Shown here piece by piece: positions 119 through 31,933 of a DNA stretch of 64,000 nt. Under the pieces are notes generated by a model. That model saw only the letters and a list, made by a program, of their open reading frames with translations. It made no database searches and was not told where the DNA came from. The position numbers and the translations under genes are program-made. Origin of the DNA: Saprospiraceae bacterium (GTDB lineage: Bacteria; Bacteroidota; Bacteroidia; Chitinophagales; Saprospiraceae); the NCBI GenBank assembly GCA_022448955.1, contig JAKVCU010000003.1, forward strand, positions 1-64,000. The letters run 5' to 3'. Each line of letters starts with the position of its first letter. Position 1 is the first letter of the stretch.

Positions 119-1243
119 CTATTTATCTTTTAGGATACCTGCCTTTTGAATCTCTCTTAGAATTCCTTCTGAATTAAGATTTGAAGAGTTGTCTAAAAGT
201 GCGATACAAGTTTTTTCTTTTACGTTGCGACCAAAGAAGGTCCTTGCACCTAGCCAGCTACCATTATGCCAAATCATATTCCCTTGTATGACCCAACCGA
301 AACCATAGTTCGTTTCTTTCCCATCAGGTAAACTAGGAGGAGTAAAAGCTTCATTGATACTTTCTTGGCTGATAATATCATTACCATACCAGAATTTATC
401 CCAAATCAAAAAATCTTCTACACTACAGAACACTGCACCATCTCCTGCTACACCATCAAGCAAAGTAGGTTTTAAGGTCTTTTTTAGCATACCGTCGAAG
501 TCATCGGTCTTGTTGGGGAAGGTTTCATCAGCAGAAAAGAGGTTCCATACTCTCGAATTTTTCATACCCATAGGTTCGAAAAGTTCTGATTGCATAAATG
601 CTTCGAAGGTTTGGCCAGATACTGTTTCAACAATTCCTGCTAATAGAACATAATTGGTATTAGAGTATTGGTAAGTAGTTCCCGCTTTCGCTAAAACTTC
701 CTCTGGGTGTTGACTGACTAATTGCACCATCCCTTGAATACTCAGAGTATCCCCTTTTTTCTCTTTATGTTTCTCGAATAAAGACATATAGTTATCTGGC
801 GTTCCAGAAGTCTGGTTAAGTAGATGTCTAACTTTCACTTCTGGATAAGGATAATCTTTTAAGTAAGTTATTACGGGGGCGTCTAGGTCTAACAATCCTT
901 TTTCTTTTAGAATTAGAATGCCAGTAGCCGTAAATTGCTTAGAAACCGATGCTAGTCGGAAAGAAGACTGTGGGGTGAGTGCTTTTTCTTTTTTCATCCC
1001 ATGCCAACCATAGCCTTTCATGAGTAAAGGTTGATGGTCTTTAGCAATCAAGATAGCACCATTAAATCGACCTTTTTCTTGTAAATCTTGAAGGTAAGCA
1101 TCAATCTGTTCGATTTTATTTTCTAGAGATGCATTTTCACTAATTTCTAGTGTAGGAATATTGGTGACGTAAAAATAGGCCCATGTAAAACTGCCTAATG
1201 CTAGAGCTACAAGCGCTAAAAAAATGTAAAGAGCAATCCTCAT
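119..1243 (-). CDS. Serine hydrolase, beta-lactamase/class C (AmpC-like) fold
   Basis: A 374-residue protein of the serine beta-lactamase-like/penicillin-binding family. An N-terminal hydrophobic segment (residues about 3-26) is a signal anchor or uncleaved signal peptide, placing the domain outside the inner membrane. The active-site motifs are present: SVSK at 99-102 (nucleophile and lysine), YSN at 193-195 and HNG at 326-328 in place of the KTG motif. Members of this family hydrolyse esters, D-peptides or amides, and most are not resistance enzymes; the substrate cannot be read from sequence. It follows the nitrilase gene by 106 bases on the same strand, and its start codon lies in a long inverted repeat (1228-1280). 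Confidence 0.85.
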   Translation of the reverse strand: MRIALYIFLALVALALGSFTWAYFYVTNIPTLEISENASLENKIEQIDAYLQDLQEKGRFNGAILIAKDHQPLLMKGYGWHGMKKEKALTPQSSFRLASVSKQFTATGILILKEKGLLDLDAPVITYLKDYPYPEVKVRHLLNQTSGTPDNYMSLFEKHKEKKGDTLSIQGMVQLVSQHPEEVLAKAGTTYQYSNTNYVLLAGIVETVSGQTFEAFMQSELFEPMGMKNSRVWNLFSADETFPNKTDDFDGMLKKTLKPTLLDGVAGDGAVFCSVEDFLIWDKFWYGNDIISQESINEAFTPPSLPDGKETNYGFGWVIQGNMIWHNGSWLGARTFFGRNVKEKTCIALLDNSSNLNSEGILREIQKAGILKDK

Positions 1244-1349: not shown

Positions 1350-2246
1350 TTAGGTCTTAACACGAAACTCAAAAACATCAGGTCTATTATAATGACCAGT
1401 AGCATCAAAGTCTAATTTTCCTCGGACCGTATCTTCCACATCAATGTCTGCGAAAAGTATACCTTCCTGATCCCATAATGGGCCTGCAATGATATTTCCT
1501 AATGGATCGACAATTACACTACCTCCCTTACTCATGATGTCTGGTTGATCAGTAATCTCTGCTTGAAAAGCTTCTGGATAATCACTTTTTTCAACATACT
1601 GATTACATCCCAACACAAAGCAACGACCTTCACAAGCAATATGCTGCATACTTGCTGTCCAAGACTCCCGATGATCAGCAGTAGGGGCGAGGTAGATTTG
1701 GATATTTTGTTGGTAAAGGGCAAATCTTGCCAATGGCATATAGTTTTCCCAGCAAATCAAGCCTCCTAATTTCCCGAAAGGGGTATCGAATACGTGCAAA
1801 TCACTGCCATCGCCTTCTCCCCAGATAATCCGCTCCGAGCCTGTTGGTTTGAGTTTGCGATGCTTGCCCATCAATTTGCCGTCAGGCGAAAAGTAAAGCA
1901 TCGTGCAATAAAGACTGCTTGTTTGATCTTTTTCAATGATACCGATGATCAAATATACTTGATGTTCTTTTGCTATTTGCGCCAAGCGTTCTGTATCGGT
2001 ACTGGGTACAACTACACTTTCGCTATTATATTTTAACCAATGTTCTCTTCCTTCAGCTTTGCGGCTACCAACCACTGCCCCAAAACTTAAGCCTCTTGGA
2101 TAACAAGGGATAAATGCCTCCGGGAAAAGTACTAACTGGGCACCTTCTTGCGCTACCTTTTTTGTCCAGTCTGCAACAATATTTAGCGTTCGATTTTTAT
2201 CAAAAAGGGCAGGCGTAGCCTGAACGACAGCGACTTTGGTCTTCAT
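1350..2246 (-). CDS. Nitrilase (aliphatic/plant-type nitrilase branch)
   Basis: A 298-residue carbon-nitrogen hydrolase expected to convert nitriles to carboxylic acids and ammonia in the cytoplasm. The catalytic triad is visible as E43 (FPEAF), K131 (HRKLKPT) and C165 (GLICWENYMPL). The CWENYMPL box and the following APTAD stretch resemble plant NIT and microbial aliphatic nitrilases more than amidase or beta-ureidopropionase branches of the superfamily. It lies six bases behind the flavin reductase gene, so the two are probably co-transcribed. The physiological nitrile is unknown. Length is close to the usual 300-350 residues. Confidence 0.88.
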   Translation of the reverse strand: MKTKVAVVQATPALFDKNRTLNIVADWTKKVAQEGAQLVLFPEAFIPCYPRGLSFGAVVGSRKAEGREHWLKYNSESVVVPSTDTERLAQIAKEHQVYLIIGIIEKDQTSSLYCTMLYFSPDGKLMGKHRKLKPTGSERIIWGEGDGSDLHVFDTPFGKLGGLICWENYMPLARFALYQQNIQIYLAPTADHRESWTASMQHIACEGRCFVLGCNQYVEKSDYPEAFQAEITDQPDIMSKGGSVIVDPLGNIIAGPLWDQEGILFADIDVEDTVRGKLDFDATGHYNRPDVFEFRVKT

Positions 2247-2252
2247 GATTTA

Positions 2253-2870
2253 TCACTTTACTCTTGCGTAGGGCAAACGTTCGATTTGTTTGCCTTCAAA
2301 ATAAGTATCTAATCCAGTACAGGCTAAGGTACCTAATTCTGGAAGTTTAAGATGTCCGCTTTCATCGATTCCATCTTCTGGCAAGATGATTTCTACAATT
2401 TTCCCAACAAGGAAGATCATTCCATTTAGTTTCATGTGATGTTCTTCAGCGTATTCGCAACCTATTTTTACACGGCTTTCTTTGACATAAGGTGCTGGAT
2501 GGCGGTCGGTATATTCTTCTGTCAATCCAGTAGCAGCAAATTCAGATATATTCTCTGGATAATTGGCAGAGCTTTGGTGGGCTTTCGCCAAAATCTCCTC
2601 ATGAATGTGATTAACGGTAAAGTATTTATTAGCTTTAATATTGTGGTAAGTATGACGAGGCACCGTCAACTGGCGGATCATAAAGCCTAAGTGAGGTGGA
2701 TTTGCTCCCACGTGGACAAAAGAGTTAAAAAGCCCAAGATTCGTGACTTTTCGATGTCCAATAGTACCAATTAAGTTCAAATTTTTATAACCAACAATGG
2801 TATTGATCAAGTGCAAGCGCTGAAAGCGCTCCATATCCAAAATCTCTTCTATTGTAATTGTACGATTCAT
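2253..2870 (-). CDS. Flavin reductase-like FMN-binding protein
   Basis: A 205-residue protein of the flavin reductase-like (split-barrel, FMN-binding) family. The N-terminal third contains the typical phosphate- and flavin-contacting stretch TIGHRKVTNLGLFNSF followed by PPHLGFMIR. Such proteins reduce FMN or FAD with NAD(P)H, or bind FMN tightly and act on their own substrates. It is the first gene after the terminator at 2911-2950 and is followed after six bases by the nitrilase, with which it probably forms a transcript. A monooxygenase partner could be the YUCCA-like enzyme at 4486, but that enzyme carries its own NADPH site, so a link is only suggestive. Confidence 0.8.
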   Translation of the reverse strand: MNRTITIEEILDMERFQRLHLINTIVGYKNLNLIGTIGHRKVTNLGLFNSFVHVGANPPHLGFMIRQLTVPRHTYHNIKANKYFTVNHIHEEILAKAHQSSANYPENISEFAATGLTEEYTDRHPAPYVKESRVKIGCEYAEEHHMKLNGMIFLVGKIVEIILPEDGIDESGHLKLPELGTLACTGLDTYFEGKQIERLPYARVK

Positions 2871-2910
2871 GTTTGTTTATTTTGAATCACAACAGTAGAA
2901 GAGGGGAATG

Positions 2911-2950
2911 GTTTTTAGTTACCCCAATAACTATTGAGGTAACTAAAAAC
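2911..2950 (-). terminator. Rho-independent terminator after the DUF819 gene
   Basis: A perfect 13-bp inverted repeat (2911-2923 with 2938-2950, arm GTTTTTAGTTACC) starts six bases beyond the DUF819 stop codon. The arms end in A/T runs, giving a U tract on either strand. It separates the DUF819 transcript from the flavin reductase-nitrilase pair. Confidence 0.75.
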
Positions 2951-2955
2951 AACTC

Positions 2956-4353
2956 TTATCCTCCCGCAACCGCTTGCATCATGTATGCACAAATCAGGGC
3001 ACCATAAGTACCCAATGCATAACCTAGAACAGCCATAAGCACCCCAACAGGGGCAAGTGCTGGACTAAATGCAGAGGCGACAATCGGTGCAGAAGCGGCG
3101 CCACCAACATTGGCTTGGCTACCCACAGCTACGAAGAAGAATGGCGCTTTTATCAAATAAGCTACAAAAAGTAGAATGATAACGTGGATCAACATCCATA
3201 TAATACCAACTGCGAAAAGACCAAGATTATCTAGTACCTCACCGAGGTTCATTTTCATACCAATGGTAGCTACTAAAATATAGATGAAAACACTTCCCCA
3301 TCTAGAAGCTCCTACCCCTTCTAAATTTCTTGCTTTGGTGAAAGATAAACCTAAACCAAGCGTAGTCGCAATAACCACTAACCAGAAGAAGCCAGACATT
3401 AGAGAGTTTAGTCCTAAATCATTTAAGGTCTCTTTAAAAGAACTCATGGCAGGTGTAATGATATCTGAGCCAAAGTGGGCTACGGCTACGCCACCAAATG
3501 CTACGGCAAGTAATACAAAAACTTGAGTGGTATTTGGGATCACCTCGATACCTGCGCGGAAATTTTGGATTCTTTCTTTTAGGTCAGTAATAGCCGTGTT
3601 ATCCGCTTTTAACCAACCATCCACTTTATTGGAAATACTTGCCCCATAAAGCAAGAAGCCCATCCAAATATTAGCTACGACAACGTCCACGACAATCATG
3701 GAAGCAAAGAGATTATCTCGCACCTCAAAGATTTCCTTCATGGCGGTTTGATTAGCGCCACCACCAATCCAACTTCCTGCAACCGTCGAAAGCCCTCTCC
3801 AAACCTGATCAGGTTCTGCAGAAATAATATCTGGAGCAATCGTAGAAATGAAAAGTAATGCTACTGGCCCACCTAGGATAATACCAACAGTTGCTGCTAA
3901 GAACATAACGATTGGTTTCCAACCCAAGTTCATTAAGCCTTTAAAGTCGATGCCAATACAAAGCAAAACTAAACTAGCTGGTAATAAGTAACGAGATGCC
4001 ATAAAGTAGAGCTTAGACTTGGTCGCATATGCACCAATAGCATCTTCTGTCAACCCCTGTTCTTTTAATAATTCCTTGATCGTTCCAAGGCTAGCATCAT
4101 TTGGCAAGTTGGGTAAGATACTTTCTTGCAAGAAACTACGTACTGCATCCATATCTTTATACCAAACTGGTGCAATAATACCTAAAGGCCAATGTAATAA
4201 TGCAGGTAGGAAATAACACAATAATAATGGTGGAACGTAAGTATAAAACTTCTTCCATCCAGGATTTTTACTACTAGAAGTAACAAAAACAAAGGCTAGT
4301 GTAATGATCAATAGCCCCAAAATAGTAGCATCGTTTTGAATAAGTGGATTCAT
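2956..4353 (-). CDS. DUF819 family integral membrane protein
   Basis: A 465-residue, highly hydrophobic protein with roughly ten to twelve membrane segments, matching the DUF819 (YjcL-like) family. Characteristic small-residue loops are visible: GGGANQTAMKEIF near the middle and SQANVGGAASAPIVASAF near the C-terminus. The symmetric placement of these loops suggests an inverted-repeat transporter fold. The substrate is not known for the family. It lies 132 bases downstream of the flavin monooxygenase gene on the same strand and ends in a clear terminator, so it may be the last gene of a GMC oxidoreductase-monooxygenase-transporter transcript. Confidence 0.85.
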   Translation of the reverse strand: MNPLIQNDATILGLLIITLAFVFVTSSSKNPGWKKFYTYVPPLLLCYFLPALLHWPLGIIAPVWYKDMDAVRSFLQESILPNLPNDASLGTIKELLKEQGLTEDAIGAYATKSKLYFMASRYLLPASLVLLCIGIDFKGLMNLGWKPIVMFLAATVGIILGGPVALLFISTIAPDIISAEPDQVWRGLSTVAGSWIGGGANQTAMKEIFEVRDNLFASMIVVDVVVANIWMGFLLYGASISNKVDGWLKADNTAITDLKERIQNFRAGIEVIPNTTQVFVLLAVAFGGVAVAHFGSDIITPAMSSFKETLNDLGLNSLMSGFFWLVVIATTLGLGLSFTKARNLEGVGASRWGSVFIYILVATIGMKMNLGEVLDNLGLFAVGIIWMLIHVIILLFVAYLIKAPFFFVAVGSQANVGGAASAPIVASAFSPALAPVGVLMAVLGYALGTYGALICAYMMQAVAGG

Positions 4354-4485
4354 GTTTTGTTGGTTTCAGTCGCTAGTTTTGGTTAATGGTTTCAGGGGGA
4401 AAGTTAATGCTTAATAGAATAATGGATATTGGTTTACAGTGAAATAGTACTACCATTAACTATAATACGCTTATACTATTAAACA

Positions 4486-5625
4486 CTATACCGTTACACT
4501 ATTAACTTTCGCAATATGCTCTGCAATGATAGCAGAATCTCTATTGATGACACCCAAGATACCTCCTGGTGTGTAATTATCATAACCTAAGAAATAAACA
4601 TTTTCAAAATTATCTTTGCCGATGACCTGTTTAGGAATATCATAATCATCGAGCAAATCTTCGGTATGATCAAAAAAGTCTTGAATACCAGAACGATAGC
4701 CTGTAGCTAAAATGATCGCATCAAATGGGTATTCATCCCCATTTTTGAATAAGACTCCAGAAGTAGTAAATCGATCAATGGCCGGTACGACTTTGATATT
4801 TCCCTTTTTTATTTGTTCTAATGTTCCAATGTCTATAACTGGGGTCTTGCCTGTGACCCGGAGCTGTTTCATTGGCGGCATTTTAGGCGTTTGGATGCCG
4901 TATCTACTGATATCACCGACCGTAAATTTTCTTAATTGTACTGCAATCCAATCACTGAGCCAATTCGGTAATTTTTGCAATTTTTTGGCAGTAAGCTGCG
5001 TAGGGCGGCCCATGATATCTCTGGGCACGATGTTGATGGGACTTCTTACAGAGATGAACGATTCTGCACCATTCTCACACAGATCGAGTGCAATTTCTGC
5101 TCCAGTATTGCCCATACCAATGACCAGTACTTTTTTCCCTTTGTATGCTAGTGCGTTTTTATAAAAACGACTATGAATGATTTCGCCTTGGAAATCTTCT
5201 TCATCTTGAAAGTAAGGATGTACAGGATGCCTGTTTACACCTGAGGCTATAATTAACTGCTTGGTTTCAATGGTTTCACCATTTTCTGTTTCTACCGTCC
5301 AACCATTTGAATTTTTGGTCATTTTCTTTGCTGCTGTATTCAATTGTGGCTGAATACCAAAGGTAGTAGCGTATTCGTAGAAATAATCCGTTAGCAGTTG
5401 TTTGGAGACATACAGTGGGTAGTGCTCTGGAAATGGTTTGAATGGGAGATGGGATAACTGCTTTACTGTATGTAAGTGTAATCGATCATAATGTTTATGC
5501 CATGCATTACCTACTCGATCACTTTTTTCGATGATATGGAAGTCTATATTTCGCTTTCGCAAATGAGCTGCCATGGCTAGTCCTGCAGGTCCAGCCCCTA
5601 CAATTAATACATCTGTTTGTTTCAT
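4486..5625 (-). CDS. Flavin-containing monooxygenase, YUCCA-like
   Basis: A 379-residue FAD- and NADPH-dependent monooxygenase. Visible motifs are the FAD-binding GAGPAG (10-15), the FMO/Baeyer-Villiger fingerprint F-x-G-x(3)-H (145-151), the NADPH-binding GMGNTG (170-175) and ATGY near the C-terminal third. The stretch YDRLHLH followed by PFKPFPEHYP is strikingly like plant YUCCA enzymes, which convert indole-3-pyruvate to auxin; bacterial relatives oxidise varied substrates. It is compact compared with typical 450-500-residue FMOs. Only three bases separate it from the upstream GMC oxidoreductase, so the two are an operon. Substrate is inferred only by resemblance. Confidence 0.85.
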   Translation of the reverse strand: MKQTDVLIVGAGPAGLAMAAHLRKRNIDFHIIEKSDRVGNAWHKHYDRLHLHTVKQLSHLPFKPFPEHYPLYVSKQLLTDYFYEYATTFGIQPQLNTAAKKMTKNSNGWTVETENGETIETKQLIIASGVNRHPVHPYFQDEEDFQGEIIHSRFYKNALAYKGKKVLVIGMGNTGAEIALDLCENGAESFISVRSPINIVPRDIMGRPTQLTAKKLQKLPNWLSDWIAVQLRKFTVGDISRYGIQTPKMPPMKQLRVTGKTPVIDIGTLEQIKKGNIKVVPAIDRFTTSGVLFKNGDEYPFDAIILATGYRSGIQDFFDHTEDLLDDYDIPKQVIGKDNFENVYFLGYDNYTPGGILGVINRDSAIIAEHIAKVNSVTV

Positions 5626-5628
5626 TCT

Positions 5629-7251
5629 TTATGCTTCTTGACGAATGGTTTGGGTACTTTTTGAGCTTTGTTGTAATATCATACTTGATGCTTTTTCTGC
5701 AATCATCATAGTTGGTGCATTGGTATTCCCTCGTATGATAATGGGCATAATGGAAGCATCTACTACTCGTAGCTTTCGAACGCCATGAACACGCAGTTGT
5801 TCATCTACTACAGCCTGATCATCGCTGCCCATTTTACAGGTGCCGACGGGATGATAAAGCGTTTCGCAATACTGCCGTAAAAAGTAAGCCATTTCATCAT
5901 CATTTTGAATCTCTTTATTGGGCATAAACGTTTTGCCTCTTACACGATCGAAAGGGGCCTGATCCAAAATCTTTTGTACAATATGGGATCCCTTCAGCAT
6001 GACTTGTACATCCCTTTCATCGCTAAAATAATTAGGATCAATGGCTATATAATCATGAGGATTTTTGGAAGCTAATCGTACTTCACCTTTACTGAATGGA
6101 GCAATTAGGGTTGGTCCAAAGCTATAGCCATTTCCAGTTTTAGGGTTTTGGAATCCATGCTCTACGAAGTAGGCAGCGGCGAACAAAAACTGTAAATCTG
6201 GTGCTGGAATAGCCGGATCAGATTTTAAAAATCCCCCTAGCTCTGCAACATTAGAGCTTAGTGGGCCTCCTTTGTTTACAAAATATTGCCAAAGATTTTT
6301 GAATACTTGCGGGAATCTTTCTACACCATCCAAGGTCGTTTTATCATGCGTGCTAATGGCCATACCACCGATCAGGTGGTCTTGTAAGTTTTTACCTACT
6401 CCAGGCAAGTGATGTTCTACTTTTATGCCATGTTGACGAAGCTCTGCTTCGTGACCGATACCGGAAAGCATTAAAAGATGTGGACTGCCAAAGGCACCTG
6501 CACAAAGAATAACTTCCTTTTGTGCGTGAATGGTACGTACAGTGCCATTTTGTTCAAATAGTACTGCTTTGGCTTCGCCATTTTCTACGATGATTTTATG
6601 CACTAATGCATTGATCTCCACATTTAAGTTTGAGCGGTGTAATACGGGGCTTAAGAAAGCGGCTGCGCCACTATGGCGTCGGCCTTCTTTTTGAGTAACT
6701 TGATAATAGCCAAAACCCTCTTGTGCTGCACCATTAAAATCTTCATTCCAATCGTATCCTGCTGCTTTCGCAGCATCTAAGAGTCTTTTCCCGAAAGGGT
6801 GACGCCAAGGCTGATCGGTAACATTGAGTTCTCCTTTCTGGCCATGAAATTCATCCTTCAATCGAGTATTGTGCTCAAATGATTTGAAGTAAGGAAGTAC
6901 TTCCTCATAAGACCAACCCTTGTTACCTAGTTTTGCCCATTGATCATAGTCGTAGCGGTGCCCACGAATGTAGATCATCGCATTGGTACTGCTACTACCT
7001 CCTAATACTTTACCTCTTGGTTGGAACATCTGACGACCATTCATGTATTTCTGAGGAACAGTGCTGTAATTCCAATCCTCTTTTGCCTTAAATAACTTAC
7101 TAAATGCTGCAGGGATATGAATATTAGGATTTTTATCCCTACCACCTGCTTCTAGGAGGATTACCTGATGCTTTTTATTTGCCGAAAGGCGATTTGCCAA
7201 AAGGCAGCCAGCAGAGCCCGCCCCAATAATGATATAATCTACGGTTGCCAT
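5629..7251 (-). CDS. GMC family oxidoreductase (choline dehydrogenase-like)
   Basis: A 540-residue glucose-methanol-choline family flavoprotein oxidising an alcohol to an aldehyde. The FAD-binding motif GAGSAGC is at residues 9-15, the GMC signature GGSSSTNAMIYIRG near residue 85, and the C-terminal catalytic region has YHPVGTCKMG and GNTNAPTMMIAEK. I chose the ATG at 7251; an in-frame TTG two codons upstream is less likely. The strong similarity is to choline dehydrogenases and alcohol dehydrogenases such as AlkJ; the exact alcohol is unknown, and no betaine aldehyde dehydrogenase lies nearby. It heads the operon with the YUCCA-like monooxygenase. Confidence 0.87.
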   Translation of the reverse strand: MATVDYIIIGAGSAGCLLANRLSANKKHQVILLEAGGRDKNPNIHIPAAFSKLFKAKEDWNYSTVPQKYMNGRQMFQPRGKVLGGSSSTNAMIYIRGHRYDYDQWAKLGNKGWSYEEVLPYFKSFEHNTRLKDEFHGQKGELNVTDQPWRHPFGKRLLDAAKAAGYDWNEDFNGAAQEGFGYYQVTQKEGRRHSGAAAFLSPVLHRSNLNVEINALVHKIIVENGEAKAVLFEQNGTVRTIHAQKEVILCAGAFGSPHLLMLSGIGHEAELRQHGIKVEHHLPGVGKNLQDHLIGGMAISTHDKTTLDGVERFPQVFKNLWQYFVNKGGPLSSNVAELGGFLKSDPAIPAPDLQFLFAAAYFVEHGFQNPKTGNGYSFGPTLIAPFSKGEVRLASKNPHDYIAIDPNYFSDERDVQVMLKGSHIVQKILDQAPFDRVRGKTFMPNKEIQNDDEMAYFLRQYCETLYHPVGTCKMGSDDQAVVDEQLRVHGVRKLRVVDASIMPIIIRGNTNAPTMMIAEKASSMILQQSSKSTQTIRQEA

Positions 7252-7751
7252 TGCCAATTATTATTTCTAATGAATGGAAGACTTTGAAATTTTTTTAAAC
7301 AACTTCTATAATAACAATTTAGCAAACAATCATTCCATTCCATAAAAAAGGAGAATAAAATTATTTGGAAAGGCATGATGGTATCTCTATTTTTTAAGGA
7401 CAGACATCTTTTTCTATTTACACTGTTATGGGATAGGAGGTTCTTCCCGGAGCTAGAATTAGGTGTTTCATCATTTGGTAAGTGTAATGATGTAGTTATC
7501 CTTTAATTATATCCACCTATTTGTGACTTTAGAAAGCCTGAAAAATACTGTCAATATTGGCTCTAGTTAGGACTTGTGACCATTTTTGAAAAGGAAACAG
7601 ACAAAAGCATACTCTATTGTTGGTCAACTTATTTACAGGACCTACTGTTGAGTAGTAAAGCAGTTTAAGGTAGTTAGTGTTGAAAAATAAAATGTATATC
7701 TTGCGCAGAATTTTTAAGGAAGGATGTTTATTTTATTTCTACTTCATACCT
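7252..7751. other. 500-base intergenic region between divergent genes
   Basis: This AT-rich stretch separates the leftward GMC oxidoreductase from the rightward membrane protein and must hold promoters for both. I found no coding remnant, strong hairpin or repeat in it. The only convincing regulatory signal is the -7 box at 7752. Confidence 0.5.
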
Positions 7752-7759
7752 TACCTTTG
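7752..7759 (+). promoter_or_regulatory. Bacteroidota -7 promoter box
   Basis: TACCTTTG followed by C matches the TAnnTTTG consensus and lies 20 bases upstream of the ATG at 7780. The -33 region is only a weak match (TTTA-rich). Confidence 0.5.
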
Positions 7760-7779
7760 CGAGACTAAAAAAAGATTAG

Positions 7780-8400
7780 ATGTTTTCAATTAATATTTAT
7801 TTACGATTTGCCTTGATAGGGGTGTTTTTGGTGGGAGGAATTGTTTTATCGTTTGTTTCAGGTTTTGGATTCTGGTATGCACTTCCATTTATATTAATCG
7901 GATTGATCCTTTTAATAGGGTATGTTTTATTGGGTACGGTGCAGTCGGCAGCAGAGTTTATGCAAGTACAAGATTTTGATGCTTGTGAAAAGCGTTTAAA
8001 TCTCACGCTAAATCCAAAATGGCTATATGTAACTAATCGGGCTTATTATTATATGATTAAAGGTTCAATTGCTTTAGCTAATCGCAATACGGAAGAAGGT
8101 GAGAAGTGGTTGAATATGGCAAATGAGATAGAGGTGCCTAGTGATAATGAAAAAGCTATGCTCCAGCTCCAGTTGGGTAATATCGCTGCTTCTAAGAATA
8201 AGTGGAAACAGGCGCAAATGCACTATCGGACAGCTAAAGCATGTAATGTATCGGAGCCCATGATTAAAGAACAATTATTGCAGTTTGAAAAAGCATTGGC
8301 ACAGCGCGGACAAATGAAAGCAGCCAATCGAATGGGAGGAAAAGGAGGCGCTATGACCCGCAGTGGGAAATCTAAGCGCAGAAGACCAAAAATGAAATAA
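7780..8400 (+). CDS. Membrane-anchored TPR-like protein of unknown function
   Basis: A 206-residue protein with two N-terminal membrane segments (about residues 8-28 and 32-52) followed by a helical cytoplasmic region whose spacing of alanine, leucine and tyrosine resembles two or three tetratricopeptide repeats (about 75-175). The C-terminus is strongly basic (KSKRRRPKMK). I do not recognise a named family. The topology suggests a small membrane scaffold that could touch RNA or acidic partners through its tail, but that is inference. A clear -7 promoter box precedes it and it stands alone. Confidence 0.7.
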   Translation: MFSINIYLRFALIGVFLVGGIVLSFVSGFGFWYALPFILIGLILLIGYVLLGTVQSAAEFMQVQDFDACEKRLNLTLNPKWLYVTNRAYYYMIKGSIALANRNTEEGEKWLNMANEIEVPSDNEKAMLQLQLGNIAASKNKWKQAQMHYRTAKACNVSEPMIKEQLLQFEKALAQRGQMKAANRMGGKGGAMTRSGKSKRRRPKMK

Positions 8401-8538
8401 ATATTTGGGAGTATCCTCCTAAACTGTCTTAGCCGCTACAACTAGTAAGCACCTTTTCTAGAATTTTCAAGCATGGCTAGCCGTTTTTGAAAAATTGTAC
8501 TTTAGTATTCCCTAAAGCATTAATCAAAACGACAAGTC

Positions 8539-8940
8539 ATGCGAAGCAAACAACAAGACATGATCGCTAGAGTGGCAGCGATTATCGCAGCAATCATTTT
8601 ATTGCAAACCTTATATTTCAAGTTTACGGCACATCCTGATAGTGTGTATATCTTTTCTCAACTTGGATTGGAGCCAGTCGGTAGAGTTGGAATTGGTGTA
8701 GCAGAATTGATCATTGCAATCCTTTTATTGGTTCCGAAAACAAGGCATCTAGGCGCTATTGGGGGCTTAGGTGTTATTAGCGGTGCTATTTTTTCTCACC
8801 TTACACAATTAGGTATAGTTGTCAATAATGATGGAGGGAGCTTATTTGGATTGGCCGTTATTACTTTTGTATGCTGCGCTATGGTAGCATGGGTTTATCG
8901 AAAAGATATTCCTTTTATTGGAGGGCTATTCAAAGAATAA
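8539..8940 (+). CDS. DoxX-like small membrane protein
   Basis: A 133-residue protein with four predicted membrane helices (about 10-28, 48-67, 72-92 and 102-122). The pattern ARVAAIIAAIILLQTLYFKF, then a GVAELIIAILLL helix, fits the DoxX/DoxD-like superfamily, whose members are mostly uncharacterised and sometimes linked to quinone or thiol redox chemistry. It is followed four bases after the stop by a strong terminator, so it is monocistronic or the end of a short transcript. Confidence 0.75.
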   Translation: MRSKQQDMIARVAAIIAAIILLQTLYFKFTAHPDSVYIFSQLGLEPVGRVGIGVAELIIAILLLVPKTRHLGAIGGLGVISGAIFSHLTQLGIVVNNDGGSLFGLAVITFVCCAMVAWVYRKDIPFIGGLFKE

Positions 8941-8943
8941 AAG

Positions 8944-8987
8944 AAAACCTTAAGCGATTTGCCGAAGGCAAACCGCTTAAGGTTTTT
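8944..8987. terminator. Bidirectional rho-independent terminator
   Basis: A 13-bp outer stem (8944-8956 with 8974-8986, arm AAAACCTTAAGCG) continues inward as TTTGCC-GAA-GGCAAA, giving a very stable hairpin with A and T runs on the two sides. It serves the convergent DoxX-like gene and the PIG-L gene, which ends at 8991. Confidence 0.9.
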
Positions 8988-8990
8988 ATA

Positions 8991-11504
8991 TTATGGCCGC
9001 TGGCCAATAGAAACGAGATTGGCAAAAATACGATAAGCGCCAGGAACTCCAGCTGGTAATTCTCTAAACCAACTGTATCCTGAATAGATATAATATCCTT
9101 TTCCATATTGTGCAACTAGCAAGCCACCATTTCTTGGAGGTTCGCCAGGGTCATTGGCTGAGAGGATAGCTTCATATTGATCGTCCCACTCATTTGGGAA
9201 ATACAAACCACGTTCTTGTACCCATCCTTCAAAATCTTTTTGTGTGATTTTGTTTGGCCAGTTCAAAACGGCATGATTAGGCTTCAAAAATCTTACCTCT
9301 GCCTCTTCAACAGACACCCGATCACGTGACAATTTAATAGGATAAGGCGCTAATTCATTCATGGGTACTTTCAAACGGAAAGAAGTATTATACTGTACCA
9401 GCATGGTCCCACCATTTTTGACATAATCCATCAATTTGGATTGTTGAAATTTTAGGCGATCTATCGTGTTGTAAGCACGTACGCCCATTACTACTGCGTC
9501 AAAAGTGGCCAAATTTCCAGTTGTTATATCTTTATCCTCCAGGATAGTTACCTCATAACCCATTTGCTCCAAGCTAGAAGGAATATCATCTCCGGCTCCC
9601 ATGATATAACCAATTCTGTACCCTGCCTTTTTAAGGTCAATATTTACCACTTTTGCAGAAGCGTCTCTTACCACTGTTTGGGTAGGAATATGATCATATT
9701 CAATAATAATTAGTTCGTTCGTATAAGACTTACCATCTACTTTTGCGAGTGGTACAATGAAATCCTCGCTTTGCTCTTTAGGTGGATATAAGGTAAAAGT
9801 GAATTTTTGTTCTTCCCCTTTTCGTTTTAATTCAAAATCAATGTTGGCTGGTTCTGCTTTCCAGCCTTCGCTATGACACAATTCTAAAGTTCCACTTACA
9901 TTAGGTTTACCTGATTTAACGAGTACTTCAATTTCTTGTGGTTTTCCATCTGCATAGACATAGATTTTTTCATTCAGATTGGTGAACACAGGAGGTGTAA
10001 TTTCAAATGGACGATAAACTTCTGCATCAACGGGATCATTGCGTTTGAAAACCACGTCTTTTGTTAGCGTCATATCTTCTCCAAGTATATTTAAGCTAAA
10101 CACCACCCTGAGCTGGCGCGGAGTTTCAGGAAGCCCCCTTTGAAGTTGATCATCTACCGTATACATACCTAATTCCCACTTTTTATTTAGCCAGTAAGAA
10201 TTAGTGGTTCCTATATCCTCAGGTAATGTTACTTTTTTATAAAATTTGTAAGATTGATTATCTTCTAAATCTAGACTCAGTGTGGTATCGAAACTTACAC
10301 CTGGTACCTTAGCTTCCAAGAGTTGAGCAGCGATATTAGAGCGATTAATAAGCTCGAATGCAAGTTCTACTTCCTCTCCAGGTGTTGCGGAATAATCATC
10401 TGCTACTACTTCAAGATATAGTGCCATACAATGAGAAATCACCTCTTCCACTTCTTCTTGCTTCACCCTCTTCCAGTAACCCTCAGGTAGTTGTTTAATG
10501 AGTTGGTAGGCTTTAACCAATTGAGGTACACTCGCTGCAGGATCAGAGAAATTATACTGCTCTTCTACTGCTTTTAAAATTTTGCCGATCGCTGCTCCCC
10601 CTTCTACTCGAGTCCAAGTCGTATTAATACCATCGAATAAATTCTCTTTATCTTCTGGTAGGTCACCATTGATTAATTCAAGGTACTCCGATTGAGAACC
10701 TCTTGTCCCTGTAGAACCAAAACCTTGCGATTTGTGCATACTGCGGCTTGCAGCAGCAATTTCTGTATTTGATTGACCAAGTAATGGGTAGTAAACGCCA
10801 ATATCTACACTCATCAATTTAGACTTATCTGCTTTTGCAAAATTTTCTCTACTTCCGTAAAACCACCAAGAAGTATTAAAAAACTGACGACGTGGTTGCC
10901 ATTCATCAAGCCATTGAAGTTGTTCAGGATAAACAGAACGATCACCAGCCATATTGAATGCGCGCTCAGAAAGCATTGCAGATGCAGTATGATGGCCATG
11001 CGTTCTACCTGGTGTGCGATGGTCGAAGCGATTGACAATAATGTCTGGTTGCCATTTGCGGATTGCCCAGATCACATCAGCCATTACTTCTTTTTCATTC
11101 CAAATTTTTAGTGTTTCATCAGGATGTTTGGAATAACCAAAGTCATTGGCACGCGAAAACATTTGAGAACCACCATCTGTATGACGAGCTGCCAGAAGCT
11201 CTTGGGTACGAATGACACCCAATAATTCGCGGATTTCAGGCCCAACTAGGTTTTGGCCTCCATCCCCTCGAGTTAGAGAGAGGTAAGCGGTATTGGCTTT
11301 CACTTCATTTGCTAAATAAGCAATTAATCTAGTATTTTCGTCATCAGGGTGAGCGGCCACATATAGTGCAGAACCTAAGAAGTTTAATTTTTGAATAGAG
11401 TGATAAATTTCGGCGGCATTGGGTTTTTCAGGCTGTTGTGCTACAGCCGTTGTAAGGAATCCCAAACACAAAACCATCCAAAATATCTTGTAACTGATTT
11501 TCAT
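8991..11504 (-). CDS. Secreted PIG-L/LmbE family deacetylase with C-terminal amidotransferase-like domain
   Basis: An 837-residue exported protein. Residues 1-22 form a signal peptide. The PIG-L domain begins with the zinc-binding AHPDDE motif at 51-56 and includes a downstream HHTAS histidine pair; the family removes N-acetyl groups from sugars. A beta-rich middle section (about 370-600) looks like an NPCBM or Ig-like module. The last 200 residues (GYIMGAGDDIP onward) have an alpha/beta layout similar to ThuA or class I glutamine-amidotransferase-like domains. This architecture is common in Bacteroidota, probably in glycan salvage. The gene stands alone and ends at the shared terminator 8944-8987. 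Confidence 0.85.
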   Translation of the reverse strand: MKISYKIFWMVLCLGFLTTAVAQQPEKPNAAEIYHSIQKLNFLGSALYVAAHPDDENTRLIAYLANEVKANTAYLSLTRGDGGQNLVGPEIRELLGVIRTQELLAARHTDGGSQMFSRANDFGYSKHPDETLKIWNEKEVMADVIWAIRKWQPDIIVNRFDHRTPGRTHGHHTASAMLSERAFNMAGDRSVYPEQLQWLDEWQPRRQFFNTSWWFYGSRENFAKADKSKLMSVDIGVYYPLLGQSNTEIAAASRSMHKSQGFGSTGTRGSQSEYLELINGDLPEDKENLFDGINTTWTRVEGGAAIGKILKAVEEQYNFSDPAASVPQLVKAYQLIKQLPEGYWKRVKQEEVEEVISHCMALYLEVVADDYSATPGEEVELAFELINRSNIAAQLLEAKVPGVSFDTTLSLDLEDNQSYKFYKKVTLPEDIGTTNSYWLNKKWELGMYTVDDQLQRGLPETPRQLRVVFSLNILGEDMTLTKDVVFKRNDPVDAEVYRPFEITPPVFTNLNEKIYVYADGKPQEIEVLVKSGKPNVSGTLELCHSEGWKAEPANIDFELKRKGEEQKFTFTLYPPKEQSEDFIVPLAKVDGKSYTNELIIIEYDHIPTQTVVRDASAKVVNIDLKKAGYRIGYIMGAGDDIPSSLEQMGYEVTILEDKDITTGNLATFDAVVMGVRAYNTIDRLKFQQSKLMDYVKNGGTMLVQYNTSFRLKVPMNELAPYPIKLSRDRVSVEEAEVRFLKPNHAVLNWPNKITQKDFEGWVQERGLYFPNEWDDQYEAILSANDPGEPPRNGGLLVAQYGKGYYIYSGYSWFRELPAGVPGAYRIFANLVSIGQRP

Positions 11505-11769
11505 AGAGCAAGGTTTTCTTTTCCATTAAAAGCCTAAACAGTAAGCTTAGTTCAAAGTGACTACAAATATATTGAAGTACTTTTGTTTTCCAGTTTTTAA
11601 TTGGTTAATATCATTTGTTACGGACATCTATCAAAATGAAGTATGACATTCTTGTGTTATAATCGAACTATTTTGAATTAGCCTTCGTTAGCCATGCCAC
11701 ATAACGTCATTGTTCATTATCTTCGCGGAAAATGAGTGCAACTCCTTTCGTGAGTTAAAATAAAGAGAT

Positions 11770-13887
11770 ATGAGTGAAAAGAAATATTTAATAACATCAG
11801 CACTGCCGTATGCCAATGGGCCATTACACCTGGGGCACCTTTCAGGTGCTTATTTACCCGCTGATATTTATGTGCGCTATCTTCGACTATTAGGTAAAGA
11901 TGTTGTTTGGGTTTGTGGTTCGGATGAACATGGCGCTGCCATAACGATTAGAGCAAAAAAAGAAGGTATTTCTCCTAAAGAAATTATTGATAAATACCAC
12001 GAGTTAAACAAAAGTAGCTTTGAACGACTAGGTATTTCTTTTGATCATTATCATCGTACGAGTGCACAATTACACCATGAAACTGCTCAAGAATTTTTCA
12101 CTAAGCTGTATGAGAAAGGGGATGAGTTTGAAGAGCAAAGTATTGATCAATACTATGATGAAGGCTTTGATCAGTTTTTAGCAGATCGTTATATTGTTGG
12201 TACTTGCCCACGTTGTGGTCATGACGAAGCTTATGGTGATCAATGCGAAAATTGTGGTTCTGATTTATCGCCAACCGAATTAATTAATCCTCGTTCTACC
12301 CTTAGCGGGAAATCACCTGTTCTTAGAACTACCAAACACTGGTATTTCAAATTAAATAAGCATGAAGATTGGCTGCGCCAATGGATTGATGAAGGTCAAT
12401 TGGATGGCGTGCAACACCATGATGCTAAAGAATGGAAAAAGCATGTGGTAGGACAGTGTCTTTCCTGGTTGGACAATGGCTTGCAACCAAGAGCGATCAC
12501 TAGAGACCTAAGCTGGGGGATTCCAGTACCTGTGGAAGGTGGAGCAGGCAAGGTATTATATGTTTGGTTTGATGCACCCATTGGTTATATCTCTTCTACC
12601 AAGCAATGGGCATTAGATAATGGCAAAGATTGGGAGGCTTACTGGAAAGGAGATGATGTAGAATTGATTCACTTTATTGGTAAGGATAATATTGTTTTTC
12701 ACTGTATTGTATTTCCTGCAATGCTAAAGGCTTATGGCGACTTCGCATTACCTAAGAATGTTCCGGCAAATCAGTTTTTAAACTTTGAAGGCCAGAAATT
12801 CTCTAAATCTCGTGGTTGGGGAATTGAGCAACATAAGTATTTGGAAGAATTTGCTGATTTTCCTAACAAAGAAGATGCTTTACGTTATACACTTATTCGG
12901 AATCTTCCAGAAAATAAGGATAGTGATTTTAGATGGGATGATTTTGAAGACCATCACGATAAAGAGTTAGTAGGAAATTTAGGTAACTTCCTAAATAGGG
13001 TAGTCGTATTGACCAATAAATATTACGAAGGAGTCATTCCTTCTCCAACTAACATTCCTACGGATAAGCTAGCCGAAGCTTATCAGATTGCTCAGCGTAT
13101 AAGCTCAGAAGTGGAGACCTTTGGCTTCAAAGCGGCTATTTTGAGCTTAATGGAATTATCATCTTGGGGGAATACTTACTTACAAGACGTTTCTCCATGG
13201 AAAATATGGAAGACCGACCCTGAAAGTGAAAAAATTAAGGAATGCATGTTCGTATGTGCACAGGTCGTAGGGCTGTTAAGTATACTTTCAGAACCGTTCC
13301 TTCCATTCACCGCACCAAAAATTCGCAGGATTCTAAATCTTGGTAGTACTGAAAATGGGGATTTAGCAGTGGTTTTAGCGAAAGCGAAAGCAAATGAAGC
13401 CATCATAGAAGCGGGACATCAGATGAATAAACCCGAGTTATTATTTGCGCAAATTAATGACCGTAAAGACCATAGTAGAAAGGAAATTGTTGATCGCCAA
13501 AGAGCTAAATTGGAAGCTATTTTGGCCCAAGAAAAAGCAAATGAACGCGAACCCATTAAGGATACGATCCAGTTTGACGATTTTACAAAATTGGATCTAC
13601 GTACGGGTACTATCACAGCTGCCGAGAAAATTCCTAAGGCGAAAAAACTGCTGAAACTAACCGTTGATTTGGGTATAGAAGAACGCACGGTGGTTTCTGG
13701 TATTGCAGCCTTTTTTAAAGCAGAAGAAGTAGTTGGAACCCAAGTAGTACTGGTTGCCAATCTTGCTCCAAGAAAGCTGAGAGGGGTAGAATCACAAGGA
13801 ATGATCTTAATGGCAGAGAATGAAAAAGGAGAGCTGGGTTTTGTAAGCCCGCAAGAAGGAATGGGAAATGGCTTTGTTGTAAAATAA
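11770..13887 (+). CDS. metG: Methionyl-tRNA synthetase
   Basis: A 705-residue class I aminoacyl-tRNA synthetase charging tRNA-Met. The HIGH motif appears as HLGH (20-23) and the KMSKS loop as KFSKS (about 342-346). A zinc knuckle with the pattern CPRCG then CENCG lies near residues 145-165. The anticodon-binding helical domain follows, and the final 110 residues (from about LDLRTGTITAAEKIPKAKKL) are the EMAP/Trbp111 tRNA-binding domain that dimerises the enzyme. Full length, with no missing motif. It stands alone, with no good terminator visible behind it. Confidence 0.97.
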   Translation: MSEKKYLITSALPYANGPLHLGHLSGAYLPADIYVRYLRLLGKDVVWVCGSDEHGAAITIRAKKEGISPKEIIDKYHELNKSSFERLGISFDHYHRTSAQLHHETAQEFFTKLYEKGDEFEEQSIDQYYDEGFDQFLADRYIVGTCPRCGHDEAYGDQCENCGSDLSPTELINPRSTLSGKSPVLRTTKHWYFKLNKHEDWLRQWIDEGQLDGVQHHDAKEWKKHVVGQCLSWLDNGLQPRAITRDLSWGIPVPVEGGAGKVLYVWFDAPIGYISSTKQWALDNGKDWEAYWKGDDVELIHFIGKDNIVFHCIVFPAMLKAYGDFALPKNVPANQFLNFEGQKFSKSRGWGIEQHKYLEEFADFPNKEDALRYTLIRNLPENKDSDFRWDDFEDHHDKELVGNLGNFLNRVVVLTNKYYEGVIPSPTNIPTDKLAEAYQIAQRISSEVETFGFKAAILSLMELSSWGNTYLQDVSPWKIWKTDPESEKIKECMFVCAQVVGLLSILSEPFLPFTAPKIRRILNLGSTENGDLAVVLAKAKANEAIIEAGHQMNKPELLFAQINDRKDHSRKEIVDRQRAKLEAILAQEKANEREPIKDTIQFDDFTKLDLRTGTITAAEKIPKAKKLLKLTVDLGIEERTVVSGIAAFFKAEEVVGTQVVLVANLAPRKLRGVESQGMILMAENEKGELGFVSPQEGMGNGFVVK

Positions 13888-14020
13888 AACTGGATTACTT
13901 TTTTTGGGCAGTGTCAATGATTGAAGGCTGCCTTATTTACATTCATTACTCAATTGGCTCTAATAAGCGTAAATAGAAGGTTAATTCTGCAATAGATTCT
14001 TTTATTTATGCATCTTTAAA

Positions 14021-14028
14021 TATTTTTG
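14021..14028 (+). promoter_or_regulatory. Bacteroidota -7 promoter box upstream of lnt
   Basis: TATTTTTG followed by CC matches TAnnTTTG and ends 22 bases before the GTG start at 14051. The -33 element is weak. Confidence 0.5.
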
Positions 14029-14050
14029 CCGTTCATTAATTCGGTTTCTG

Positions 14051-15838
14051 GTGAAAAAACGCTTACCATATATTCTTGGGCTTGGTTTTTTGATTGTTTT
14101 AGGAATAACTACGACGAGCATGTATCTTCGCTCACAAGAGGAGCTATTGTGGGCTTATCGACCTTTGTTCTTTTTCTTGTCTCTTTGGGGATTAATTATG
14201 AGTATAGGTTATTCCTATTTGTCAAAATTGCCCAATAAGGCCCGTCTCCTTGGACTTTCAACACTCAGTGGTGTATTATTGGGCGTTGGTTTTCCAGATC
14301 TTATCCCTGTTCCTTTTTTGATGTTCATAGGCTTTATTCCGCTCTTGCTGGTTGAAGATGAAATTAGTAAACAACAACCGAAACGAGCGGGCTGGCAAGT
14401 TACCAAATTTGCCTTTCACACATTTGTGGTTTGGAATATCATCAGTACCTATTGGGTGGGAAATGCAGCACTAGGCGGTGGTTTTTTTGCTATATGGGTG
14501 AATGCAGCCTTGATGTGTATTCCTTTTTTGTTATTTCACTTGACAAAAAGAGCCACACCAAAGTTGGCAAACATTTCTTTTATTGCCTATTGGTTTAGTT
14601 TTGAATACATACATTTGAATTGGGACCTGACTTGGCCTTGGTTGACCCTTGGTAATAGCTTTGCAGAATATCCTTCTTTGGTGCAGTGGTATGAGTTTAC
14701 GGGTGTTTTTGGGGGTGGTTTATGGATTTTGGCAATTAATGTGTGGGGCTATCAATTGTATCAACACTATAAAGTAGAGCGGCAAATAGCTAGAGGATTG
14801 GCTTCACGTATTGGTATTACCCTCATCTTACCTATGGTTATTTCATTAGTAATGTATTATAACTATGAGGAACAAGGGGAAGATGCAAGTGTGGTGGTCG
14901 TACAGCCCAACTACGAACCACATTATGTGAAATTTAAGATACGTGAAAAGGATCAAGTCCAGCATTTTCTGAATCTGTCGGAGCAAAAACTAGATGAGAA
15001 TACGGATTATCTAGTTTTTCCAGAGAGTAGTTTCGGTACGTCTAGGTATGTTCGAATTAATACCATTGACCGTCATCGTTCGATTCGTACTTTAAAAGAG
15101 TTTGTAGCGAAATACCCCCAGCTGAATATTGTTTCGGGGATCAATGCCTACTATGATTTTGGTCCTAATGAAGCATTTTCAGATGCTGTAAGAGGACGTA
15201 AAAGTGGAAGCAAAACCATATTTTACGAAACACTCAACTGTGGCATTCAAATTAATGCTGCATCAGATACTATTCCTATTTATAAAAAGTCAAAATTGGT
15301 ACCTGGTCCAGAAAATTTCCCTTTCCAAGCACTTTTATTCTTTATGAAGCCACTTGTGAAAAAATTGGGTGGTACAACCGCTGGCGTAGGCTCGCAAGAA
15401 AATAGAGATGCCTTCGAAAGTACGAGTGGAAAGGCAGCACCTGTTATTTGCTATGAATCCGTTTTTGGGGATTACTTCAGAGGTTATATTTTAGCAGGAG
15501 CTGATTTGGCATTCATCATGACAAATGATGGATGGTGGGATAATACCGCAGGTCATCGTCAGCATTTGTTATTTGGTGCGTTACGAGCAATTGAAACAAG
15601 AAGAGCTATTGCACGCTCTGCCAATACCGGAATTTCTTGCTTTATCAATCAAAGAGGAGATGTGTTACAAGCAACTAATTATGACGAGGCAGCAGTCATC
15701 CGTCAAAATTTAAAGAAAAATAAAAAGATCACGATCTATGTTCAATGGGGTGATGCGATAGCAAGAATAGCCCTTTTCCTTTCCATGTTATTACTCGTAA
15801 ACTTATTTGTAAAGAGTAGAATGAAAGAAGAGCAGTAA
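14051..15838 (+). CDS. lnt: Apolipoprotein N-acyltransferase
   Basis: A 595-residue inner-membrane enzyme that adds the third acyl chain to the N-terminal cysteine of lipoproteins. The first half holds six to eight membrane helices; the periplasmic half is a nitrilase-like domain with catalytic Glu325 (VFPESS), Lys in KKSKLVPGPENFP and Cys467 (VICYES). A final hydrophobic helix ends the protein. The start is GTG at 14051, supported by the basic KKR just before the first helix and by the promoter box 22 bases upstream. The protein is longer than E. coli Lnt (about 510 residues), with extra N-terminal helices. The leftward porX gene lies beyond a short convergent gap. Confidence 0.93.
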   Translation: MKKRLPYILGLGFLIVLGITTTSMYLRSQEELLWAYRPLFFFLSLWGLIMSIGYSYLSKLPNKARLLGLSTLSGVLLGVGFPDLIPVPFLMFIGFIPLLLVEDEISKQQPKRAGWQVTKFAFHTFVVWNIISTYWVGNAALGGGFFAIWVNAALMCIPFLLFHLTKRATPKLANISFIAYWFSFEYIHLNWDLTWPWLTLGNSFAEYPSLVQWYEFTGVFGGGLWILAINVWGYQLYQHYKVERQIARGLASRIGITLILPMVISLVMYYNYEEQGEDASVVVVQPNYEPHYVKFKIREKDQVQHFLNLSEQKLDENTDYLVFPESSFGTSRYVRINTIDRHRSIRTLKEFVAKYPQLNIVSGINAYYDFGPNEAFSDAVRGRKSGSKTIFYETLNCGIQINAASDTIPIYKKSKLVPGPENFPFQALLFFMKPLVKKLGGTTAGVGSQENRDAFESTSGKAAPVICYESVFGDYFRGYILAGADLAFIMTNDGWWDNTAGHRQHLLFGALRAIETRRAIARSANTGISCFINQRGDVLQATNYDEAAVIRQNLKKNKKITIYVQWGDAIARIALFLSMLLLVNLFVKSRMKEEQ

Positions 15839-30550: not shown

Positions 30551-30926
30551 TTCTTATCTCCTAATTTTGTTTTTTGATCTAGAGTGGGTGTATAGGATAA
30601 TCGAATGGTATTCATAAATTATATCGTGTACTATCTGACAATGCCATTTTATATAAGATTGAAAATTTAACAAGTAAAGACTCTTATCTGTATAATAATT
30701 ATTAAAGTTGTAATTCTCTATTTTTTAGAGTATTATTGTTTTCAGAGCACACCACTATTTGTTGGAATTAAGTTTATAAATCTACTAATTAAAAAAGTTT
30801 CAACACATTTTAATTTTAGATAAAACAGCTTAGACATTTTATTTAATGATATTTCTAATAATGTAGTAATGCGTTATAAATTATCATTGGATAACAAAGC
30901 TATTTAAAATACAAACTATTGAACAA
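30551..30926. other. 376-base AT-rich intergenic region
   Basis: Very AT-rich sequence before the HTH gene. It holds only a small weak hairpin (CTCTA with TAGAG around 30717-30730). No open frame of note and no copy of the repeats seen elsewhere. Confidence 0.4.
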
Positions 30927-31145
30927 ATGACCTTTTCAGAACAACTTATGCTTGTAAAACGCTTGCACTATTTAATTACGGTTAGGGGGACTGGAACTCC
31001 ACAAAAACTGGCCATAAAATTAGGCATATCAAGGGCTTCAGTTTTTAAATATTTAGATGAGTTAAGGAATCTTGGAGCAGAGATTAGCTATTGTAGAAAT
31101 AGGAAAAGTTATTACTACAAAAATGAATTTATTCTTTCATTTTAA
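30927..31145 (+). CDS. Small helix-turn-helix regulator (HTH_11-like)
   Basis: A 72-residue protein that is almost entirely one winged-helix domain of the HTH_11/DeoR type: helix one with LVKRLHYLITVRGTGTP, helices two and three in QKLAIKLGISRASVFKYLDEL, and a wing with CRNRKSYYYK. It lacks any ligand-binding domain, so it may work as a dimer or with a partner. It lies 101 bases upstream of the GLPGLI gene and is likely its regulator by position. The region is more AT-rich than the neighbours, hinting at transfer. Confidence 0.78.
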   Translation: MTFSEQLMLVKRLHYLITVRGTGTPQKLAIKLGISRASVFKYLDELRNLGAEISYCRNRKSYYYKNEFILSF

Positions 31146-31246
31146 CATAGTATAAAAACAGAATCTAATTTTTTAGACTATAGGGTCTTAATTTTAAGAT
31201 CCTATGATAACTAATATTTTAATTGTCAGAGAATATAAATTGCTAC

Positions 31247-31927: not shown

Positions 31928-31933
31928 AGATTG

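Follow-up and report, generated by a model that had tools for sequence, protein, structure and literature searches.

Gene content and arrangement of the locus

The analysed stretch, called the window throughout, comprises positions 1 to 64,000 of contig JAKVCU010000003.1 of a Saprospiraceae bacterium (assembly GCA_022448955.1). Its subject is a block of five genes, encoding a nitrilase, a flavin reductase-like protein, a DUF819 membrane protein, a YUCCA-like flavin monooxygenase (FMO) and a GMC alcohol dehydrogenase/oxidase. A first-pass annotation, made from the letters alone, had proposed that these enzymes act in a joint pathway of auxin or nitrile chemistry. The five genes very probably do not form one conserved pathway. 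In the relatives examined they do not stand together, and what recurs is smaller groups: GMC, aldehyde dehydrogenase (ALDH) and FMO on one side, flavin reductase and nitrilase on the other. The block is probably made of three pieces that are maintained separately and happen to lie side by side.

The observation itself is confirmed, both the block of five and the protein segments quoted for it. All five open reading frames are present, all on the minus strand, and each is assigned to its family by Pfam (Table 1). In the order of transcription the gaps measure 3 bp (GMC to FMO), 132 bp (FMO to DUF819), 85 bp (DUF819 to flavin reductase) and 6 bp (flavin reductase to nitrilase). The GMC-FMO and flavin reductase-nitrilase spacings look operonic; the two gaps around DUF819 are wider.

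Table 1. Genes of the block and the next gene downstream of the nitrilase, with positions in the window.
Product	Length (aa)	Position	Strand	Pfam match
Beta-lactamase-fold serine hydrolase, next gene downstream of nitrilase		119-1243	-	PF00144
Nitrilase, NIT4-like	298	1350-2246	-	PF00795, 193 bits
Flavin reductase-like split-barrel protein	205	2253-2870	-	PF01613, 65 bits
DUF819 membrane protein, putative transporter	465	2956-4353	-	PF05684, 242 bits
YUC-like class B flavin monooxygenase (FMO)	379	4486-5625	-	FMO-like PF00743, 103 bits
GMC alcohol dehydrogenase/oxidase	542	5629-7257	-	PF00732/PF05199, 180/140 bits

Linkage of the five genes in related genomes

The sample comprises 119 genomes, the window's own genome (G000) included, searched with match thresholds that differ by gene. 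Matches are found to the FMO in 31 genomes, the nitrilase in 23, the flavin reductase in 62, the DUF819 protein in 65 and the GMC enzyme in 29. Eleven other genomes carry both FMO and nitrilase (G001, G015, G020, G045, G050, G055, G058, G062, G063, G065 and G110), and the two genes are linked in none of the eleven. They lie on different contigs in ten, most relatives being draft genomes in which separate contigs say nothing of distance, and 3.98 Mb apart along the single 7.5 Mb contig of G062. With this, and with the set of the sister species split over three contigs, the proposed joint pathway is not upheld.

In that sister species, G001, the three contigs are C132, C362 and C193. On C132, FMO-GMC adjoins a homologue of window gene 15955. 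On C362, DUF819 adjoins a homologue of window gene 14051, of the apolipoprotein N-acyltransferase family. On C193, flavin reductase-nitrilase comes after two genes, one NUDIX and one Clp-type AAA, and the nitrilase stands at the contig end. Inversion of window positions 4486-15838 (~11 kb) would give the FMO/15955 and DUF819/14051 junctions in the right orientations. Beyond GMC, a PKD/T9SS protein and a beta-lactamase-like gene replace the homologues of window 7780-11504. A single inversion is rejected as the full account of the G001 gene order: two junctions fit, the genes past GMC do not, and more than one rearrangement therefore separates the window species from G001. The FMO-DUF819 adjacency is inferred to have come by rearrangement, in one of the two lineages.

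The DUF819 gene belongs to no conserved unit at this locus. Its loci in ten relatives contain no match to any of the other four genes, except for a flavin reductase in G007. At that locus (L134, 4345-10145) an NAD synthase, DUF819, two genes of one family and the flavin reductase homologue stand in line on one strand; the one scanned member of the same-family pair is a short-chain dehydrogenase.

Flavin monooxygenase

The YDRLHLH and PFPEHYP segments by which the FMO had been likened to plant YUCCA are located in the protein. PMC7690449 prints six YUCCA motif sites, and the window FMO has four of them: an FAD site (GAGPAG at residue 10) and an NADPH site (GMGNTG at residue 170), both of the GxGxxG type, the FMO-identifying motif FxGxxxHxxxYK at residue 145 (FQGEIIHSRFYK), and ATG motif 2 (F/LATGY) as LATGY at residue 306. 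The other two are absent. The GC motif ExxxxxAS has no match in the window FMO and is present in 2 of the 26 tree rows of its order; for ATG motif 1, WL(I/V)VATGENAE, ATGEN or ATGES occurs in 0 of the same 26 rows, the window FMO included. ATG motif 1 is missing from 3 of 8 birch YUCCAs too (PMC7690449). The window FMO thus shares YDRLxLH and LATGY with plant YUCCA and differs from it in lacking ExxxxxAS and ATGEN. Identity to two Arabidopsis YUCCA sequences, both unverified, is 36-38% over ~380 residues. Best PDB sequence matches are 8acs and 8z12 (FAD-dependent oxidoreductase, flavin-dependent monooxygenase). The closest named homologue is from Spirosoma (46%); relatives occur also in Flavihumibacter, Bradyrhizobium, Rhodanobacter, Streptomyces and others, and homologues stand on 16 plasmid records.

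The FMO tree has 49 rows and takes in 25 of the 30 relatives' FMOs; its outside rows are few, both YUCCA rows are unverified sequences, and seven FMO-like rows (L003, L004, L171 and L175-L178) are omitted. Spirosoma joins the 26 rows from the window's order in a clade of 27 rows (support 99/99). A larger clade of 37 rows (95/91) unites the window FMO with the two unverified YUCCA sequences and with further homologues, rhizobial and burkholderial ones among them. The exact sister of YUCCA is weakly supported (90/37). Grouping with unrelated FMOs, named beforehand as refutation, is not what the tree gives, and the YUCCA resemblance is real. Such a resemblance is on record already: in Turnaev et al. 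2020 (PMC7570161), bacterial 'YUC-like FMOs' come out nearest to YUCCA, and a transfer from bacteria into plants is preferred. These proteins and the window FMO are alike in being class B, in grouping with plant YUCCA apart from other FMOs, in the FxGxxxHxxxY/F K/R and GxGxxG motifs, and in similarity to YUCCA over the full length (here to the unverified sequences). The window FMO likely belongs to the same group; its clade in the present tree comprises its own order plus Spirosoma (99/99). No function for bacterial YUC-like FMOs is found in the available part of PMC7570161, nor a functional study of one among the titles listed from open-licence PubMed Central papers. PMC10682829 places YUCCAs together with some prokaryotic FMOs in one clade, whose reactions include Baeyer-Villiger and N/S oxidations, and terms several roles of this clade enigmatic. 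With the clade support present and linkage in relatives absent, the family assignment of the FMO is therefore kept and the joint pathway dropped; in this sense the first-pass interpretation is partly supported.

Nitrilase

The CWENYMPL box quoted for the nitrilase is present at the catalytic Cys165, and the catalytic Glu-Lys-Glu-Cys tetrad (as in PMC6214922) is complete, with E43, K131, E138 and C165. By its sequence the protein resembles plant NIT4, the beta-cyanoalanine type, rather than NIT1. The best PDB sequence match is NIT4 (6i00, 318.9 bits vs 182.2 for the next, a lead of 137 bits). Arg62, at the twist position, lies 19 residues past the catalytic Glu43 and is aligned with an Arg in 6i00; it corresponds to residue 80 of Capsella NIT1 if the alignment is gap-free from residues 61 to 80. 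According to Woodward et al. (PMC6214922), Arg at position 80, an interface position, is conserved among the NIT4 enzymes of plants, which as a rule are beta-cyanoalanine-specific. A NIT4-like nitrilase with the NIT4-conserved Arg does not favour auxin formation via indole-3-acetonitrile.

NIT4-type nitrilases are known from bacteria (PMC8567248). With the NIT4 type, known from plants and from Pseudomonas pseudoalcaligenes (PMC8567248), the window nitrilase shares the catalytic tetrad and the Arg reported as conserved in NIT4 (PMC6214922). It has Gly136-Ser137 where NIT4 of 6i00 has Ala-Leu before the Glu138 position, and the substrate is therefore not readable from the sequence. The Pseudomonas nit4 gene sits in the cio cluster, unlike the window context (PMC8567248). 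The Nit1C cyanide assimilation cluster likewise combines a nitrilase with a flavoprotein. Its models TIGR04048 and TIGR04046 are matched weakly, far under cut-off (210 bits vs 503 and 92 vs 498), and membership is rejected. Homologues of the nitrilase, at 36-58% identity, are carried by 47 plasmid records.

Recurring gene groups

Flavin reductase is directly followed by nitrilase in the window and in two relatives, the matches being separated by 33 bp in G001 and by 271 bp in G065; in G058 the two are 5.6 kb apart. This pair may be mere ancestral gene order with no shared function, an explanation given a somewhat less than even chance. It accords with loci L121, L122, L156 and L157, where the flavin reductase stands amid BaxI-type (f6) and RadA-type (f7) genes, families named from the L121 members, and with L156 and L157 having no nitrilase at that stretch. 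Against it, the window, G001 and G065 all retain the order, and the pairs of the window and G001 lie away from BaxI/RadA in the sequence seen. The BaxI, RadA, DCC1-like, dksA-type zinc finger and ClpB-type genes beside relatives' nitrilases are set aside as housekeeping neighbours, not a cluster.

On an Azospirillum brasilense plasmid (L241, 1471-5966), the one covered of five Azospirillum records among the nitrilase plasmids, ABC transporter genes are succeeded by a flavin reductase family protein and then by a NIT4-like nitrilase, the last two overlapping by 4 bp. Similar kinds of genes are thus paired with a nitrilase in two phyla. The Azospirillum flavin reductase gives no BLASTP alignment to that of the window, and the pair is not accepted as one conserved across phyla. 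No flavin reductase is listed in four other nitrilase plasmid regions, for which the gene table is incomplete.

GMC-FMO occurs in the window and G001, GMC-ALDH-FMO in G009, FMO-GMC-ALDH in G084, a genome of another family, and ALDH-FMO in G002 and G021. In G023 GMC and ALDH stand together, with the FMO elsewhere; in L052 the ALDH is ~2 kb from the FMO on the opposite strand. The ALDH relative of the window genome is not near the FMO but on contig C13, and G001 has no ALDH relative at E 1e-60.

Tight partners, defined as same-strand genes within 120 bp, number 30 for the FMO and are spread over 20 of 30 loci, the window itself and the own-genome paralogue (L064) being omitted. Redox or acyl enzymes make up 14 of these 30. 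Nitrilase and DUF819 have 25 such partners, among which the L119 flavin reductase is counted, and 2 of the 25 are redox or acyl enzymes (Fisher p 0.0024). For strict oxidoreductases the figures are 11 of 30 vs 2 of 25 (p 0.023). The redox/acyl category was set post hoc, and the genomes are related. The 14 are GMC (two), ALDH (two), FAD_binding_2 (two), P450, FMN dehydrogenase, nitroreductase, fatty acid hydroxylase family, acyl-CoA dehydrogenase, thiolase and 4HBT thioesterase (two). The remaining 16 are of other kinds or family-less. Some partners are named by homology, not by Pfam, and open reading frames in relatives' loci are the longest non-overlapping frames, by which partners may be misassigned. 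The enrichment is a pointer, not proof; it suggests oxidation of lipophilic alcohols and carbonyls.

In L045 (5944-10257) a YUC-like FMO stands in a same-strand run with a 4HBT thioesterase and two cytochrome P450s; in L046 (3731-8132), from a different genus, the run has a thioesterase, a thiolase and a P450. In L062 (4890-9433) an acyl-CoA dehydrogenase, the YUC-like FMO and an FAD_binding_2 dehydrogenase overlap or abut. An FAD_binding_2 homologue is upstream of the FMO also in L037 (overlapping) and L053 (~190 bp away). Of 76 named FMO loci, 20 are covered (L159-L178). Five of the 16 FMO plasmid records, one lacking annotation, show varying neighbours, NADH:flavin oxidoreductase among them.

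Pathway explanations

Auxin synthesis is highly unlikely. In this explanation the FMO would convert indole-3-pyruvate to indole-3-acetate, and the nitrilase indole-3-acetonitrile to the same product. The place of the FMO in a YUCCA-containing clade agrees with it, as do the FAD, NADPH, FxGxxxHxxxYK and LATGY motifs, the co-occurrence of nitrilase and FMO in family f1 (see below), and one marginal Alliinase_C (TAA-type) match in the window's own genome (24.9 bits vs a 22-bit cut-off, with one more below). The indolepyruvate decarboxylase model stays under cut-off in that genome, as in all control genomes. Such checks within the window's own genome carry little weight. An auxin cluster is rejected on the missing linkage in the 11 genomes with both genes and on the NIT4-like nitrilase with its Arg at the twist position. 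The FMO without ExxxxxAS and ATGEN speaks against auxin as well, and among its tight partners scanned no tryptophan- or indole-specific family is named. A tempting but unsupported bacterial auxin cluster is thereby removed.

Breakdown of an external nitrile or aldoxime is unlikely too. Here the DUF819 protein would be the importer, the FMO or the flavin reductase would make or clear an oxime, the nitrilase would free ammonium, and the GMC enzyme would take an alcohol by-product. The single strand, the short gaps at both ends of the block and the wider gaps free of a terminator-like site suit this scheme, as do the flavin reductase-nitrilase adjacency in G001 and G065 and the transporter-reductase-nitrilase succession of the Azospirillum plasmid. 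However, that plasmid's flavin reductase does not align to the window's by BLASTP, DUF819 is far commoner than the nitrilase (65 of 119 genomes), and the DUF819 loci of the ten relatives lack the other four genes, G007 with its flavin reductase apart. Aldoxime dehydratase (PF13816) has no match in G000, and no control genome matched either.

Proposed functions

For the preferred reading, that of three separately kept pieces, reactions and substrates of the window enzymes are inferred. GMC and FMO would form the first piece and probably act one after the other on a lipophilic alcohol. From it the GMC enzyme would yield a carbonyl, into which the FMO, via C4a-hydroperoxyflavin, would insert oxygen in a Baeyer-Villiger-type or deformylation-type reaction; some relatives would have an aldehyde dehydrogenase as a further member. 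Such carbonyl oxidation by GMC and FMO comes close to an even chance without reaching it. Besides auxin formation, YUCCA10 of grape and coffee performs Baeyer-Villiger oxidation and deformylation of chlorophyll catabolites (PMC12930011), and such chemistry therefore exists within the wider family. Flavin reductase and NIT4-like nitrilase would be the second piece, probably serving to salvage or detoxify a small nitrile, for example beta-cyanoalanine, with release of ammonium; for this NIT4-like salvage of a putative small nitrile the chances are evenly balanced. The third piece would be the DUF819 membrane protein, common in relatives.

Several observations weigh against a division into three pieces, in addition to the draft state of most relatives, the G001 nitrilase at a contig end, the replaced genes beyond GMC in G001 and the post hoc partner category. 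A single transcript over the five genes is possible: they share one strand, and the promoter/terminator scan (5 sites vs 4.9 expected from shuffles, with a promoter model unsuited to some phyla) places no terminator-like site in either of the wider gaps (132 bp and 85 bp). GMC or ALDH stands in line with the FMO in just 5 of 30 relatives' loci; several of the 30 loci are cut by contig ends. In the 72 genomes of family f1, the FMO is present in 11 of 13 genomes with a close nitrilase (at least 50% identity) vs 16 of 59 others (p 0.0002), and the co-occurrence is found also in the 31 f1 genomes of at least 5 Mb (p 0.012). GMC co-occurs in f1 with the FMO (p 0.003) and with the nitrilase (p 7e-6); DUF819 and FMO show no co-occurrence there (p 0.5). 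Nitrilase and FMO may thus be metabolically linked without gene linkage, or shared ancestry could lie behind their co-occurrence. A MetG tree of 71 genomes, without six f1 genomes that gave no match or a partial one, holds just 3 independent supported pairs that differ in nitrilase, too few for a test.

With no joint occurrence among the related bacteria examined, the five genes therefore look like ordinary enzymes turned neighbours rather than a hormone pathway. A wider proposal is that the YUCCA-related FMOs of these bacteria act in a small oxidation module of GMC enzyme, ALDH and YUC-like FMO, with Baeyer-Villiger or deformylation chemistry on the carbonyl made by the GMC enzyme. It is rather doubtful. 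If true, the auxin-making chemistry of plants may derive from bacterial breakdown of alcohols and carbonyls, which would be a testable ancestral role of YUCCA. Of modest use are the partners of YUC-like FMOs in the window's order (GMC, ALDH, P450, thioesterase, acyl-CoA dehydrogenase), which suggest candidate substrates.

Further matches and other features

The best PDB match of the flavin reductase is 3fge, a putative flavin reductase with a split barrel domain (183 bits). The DUF819 protein has no PDB sequence match at E 0.01. The GMC enzyme scores 593 bits with NCBIfam PRK02106, under the cut-off of 605, and the alcohol oxidases 8rpg/8rpf are among its best PDB sequence matches, along with 8b7s and 9lq0. 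In relatives, neighbouring genes carry type IX secretion sorting domains. Together with Spirosoma as the source of the closest named FMO, these domains suggest that the organism probably belongs to Bacteroidota. Window positions 30001-34000 have a GC fraction of 0.30-0.31 vs 0.33-0.41 in the other 2-kb steps, and are possibly foreign DNA or genes of odd composition. A homologue (55%) of the serine hydrolase downstream of the nitrilase is found near GMC-FMO in the sister species too (L034).

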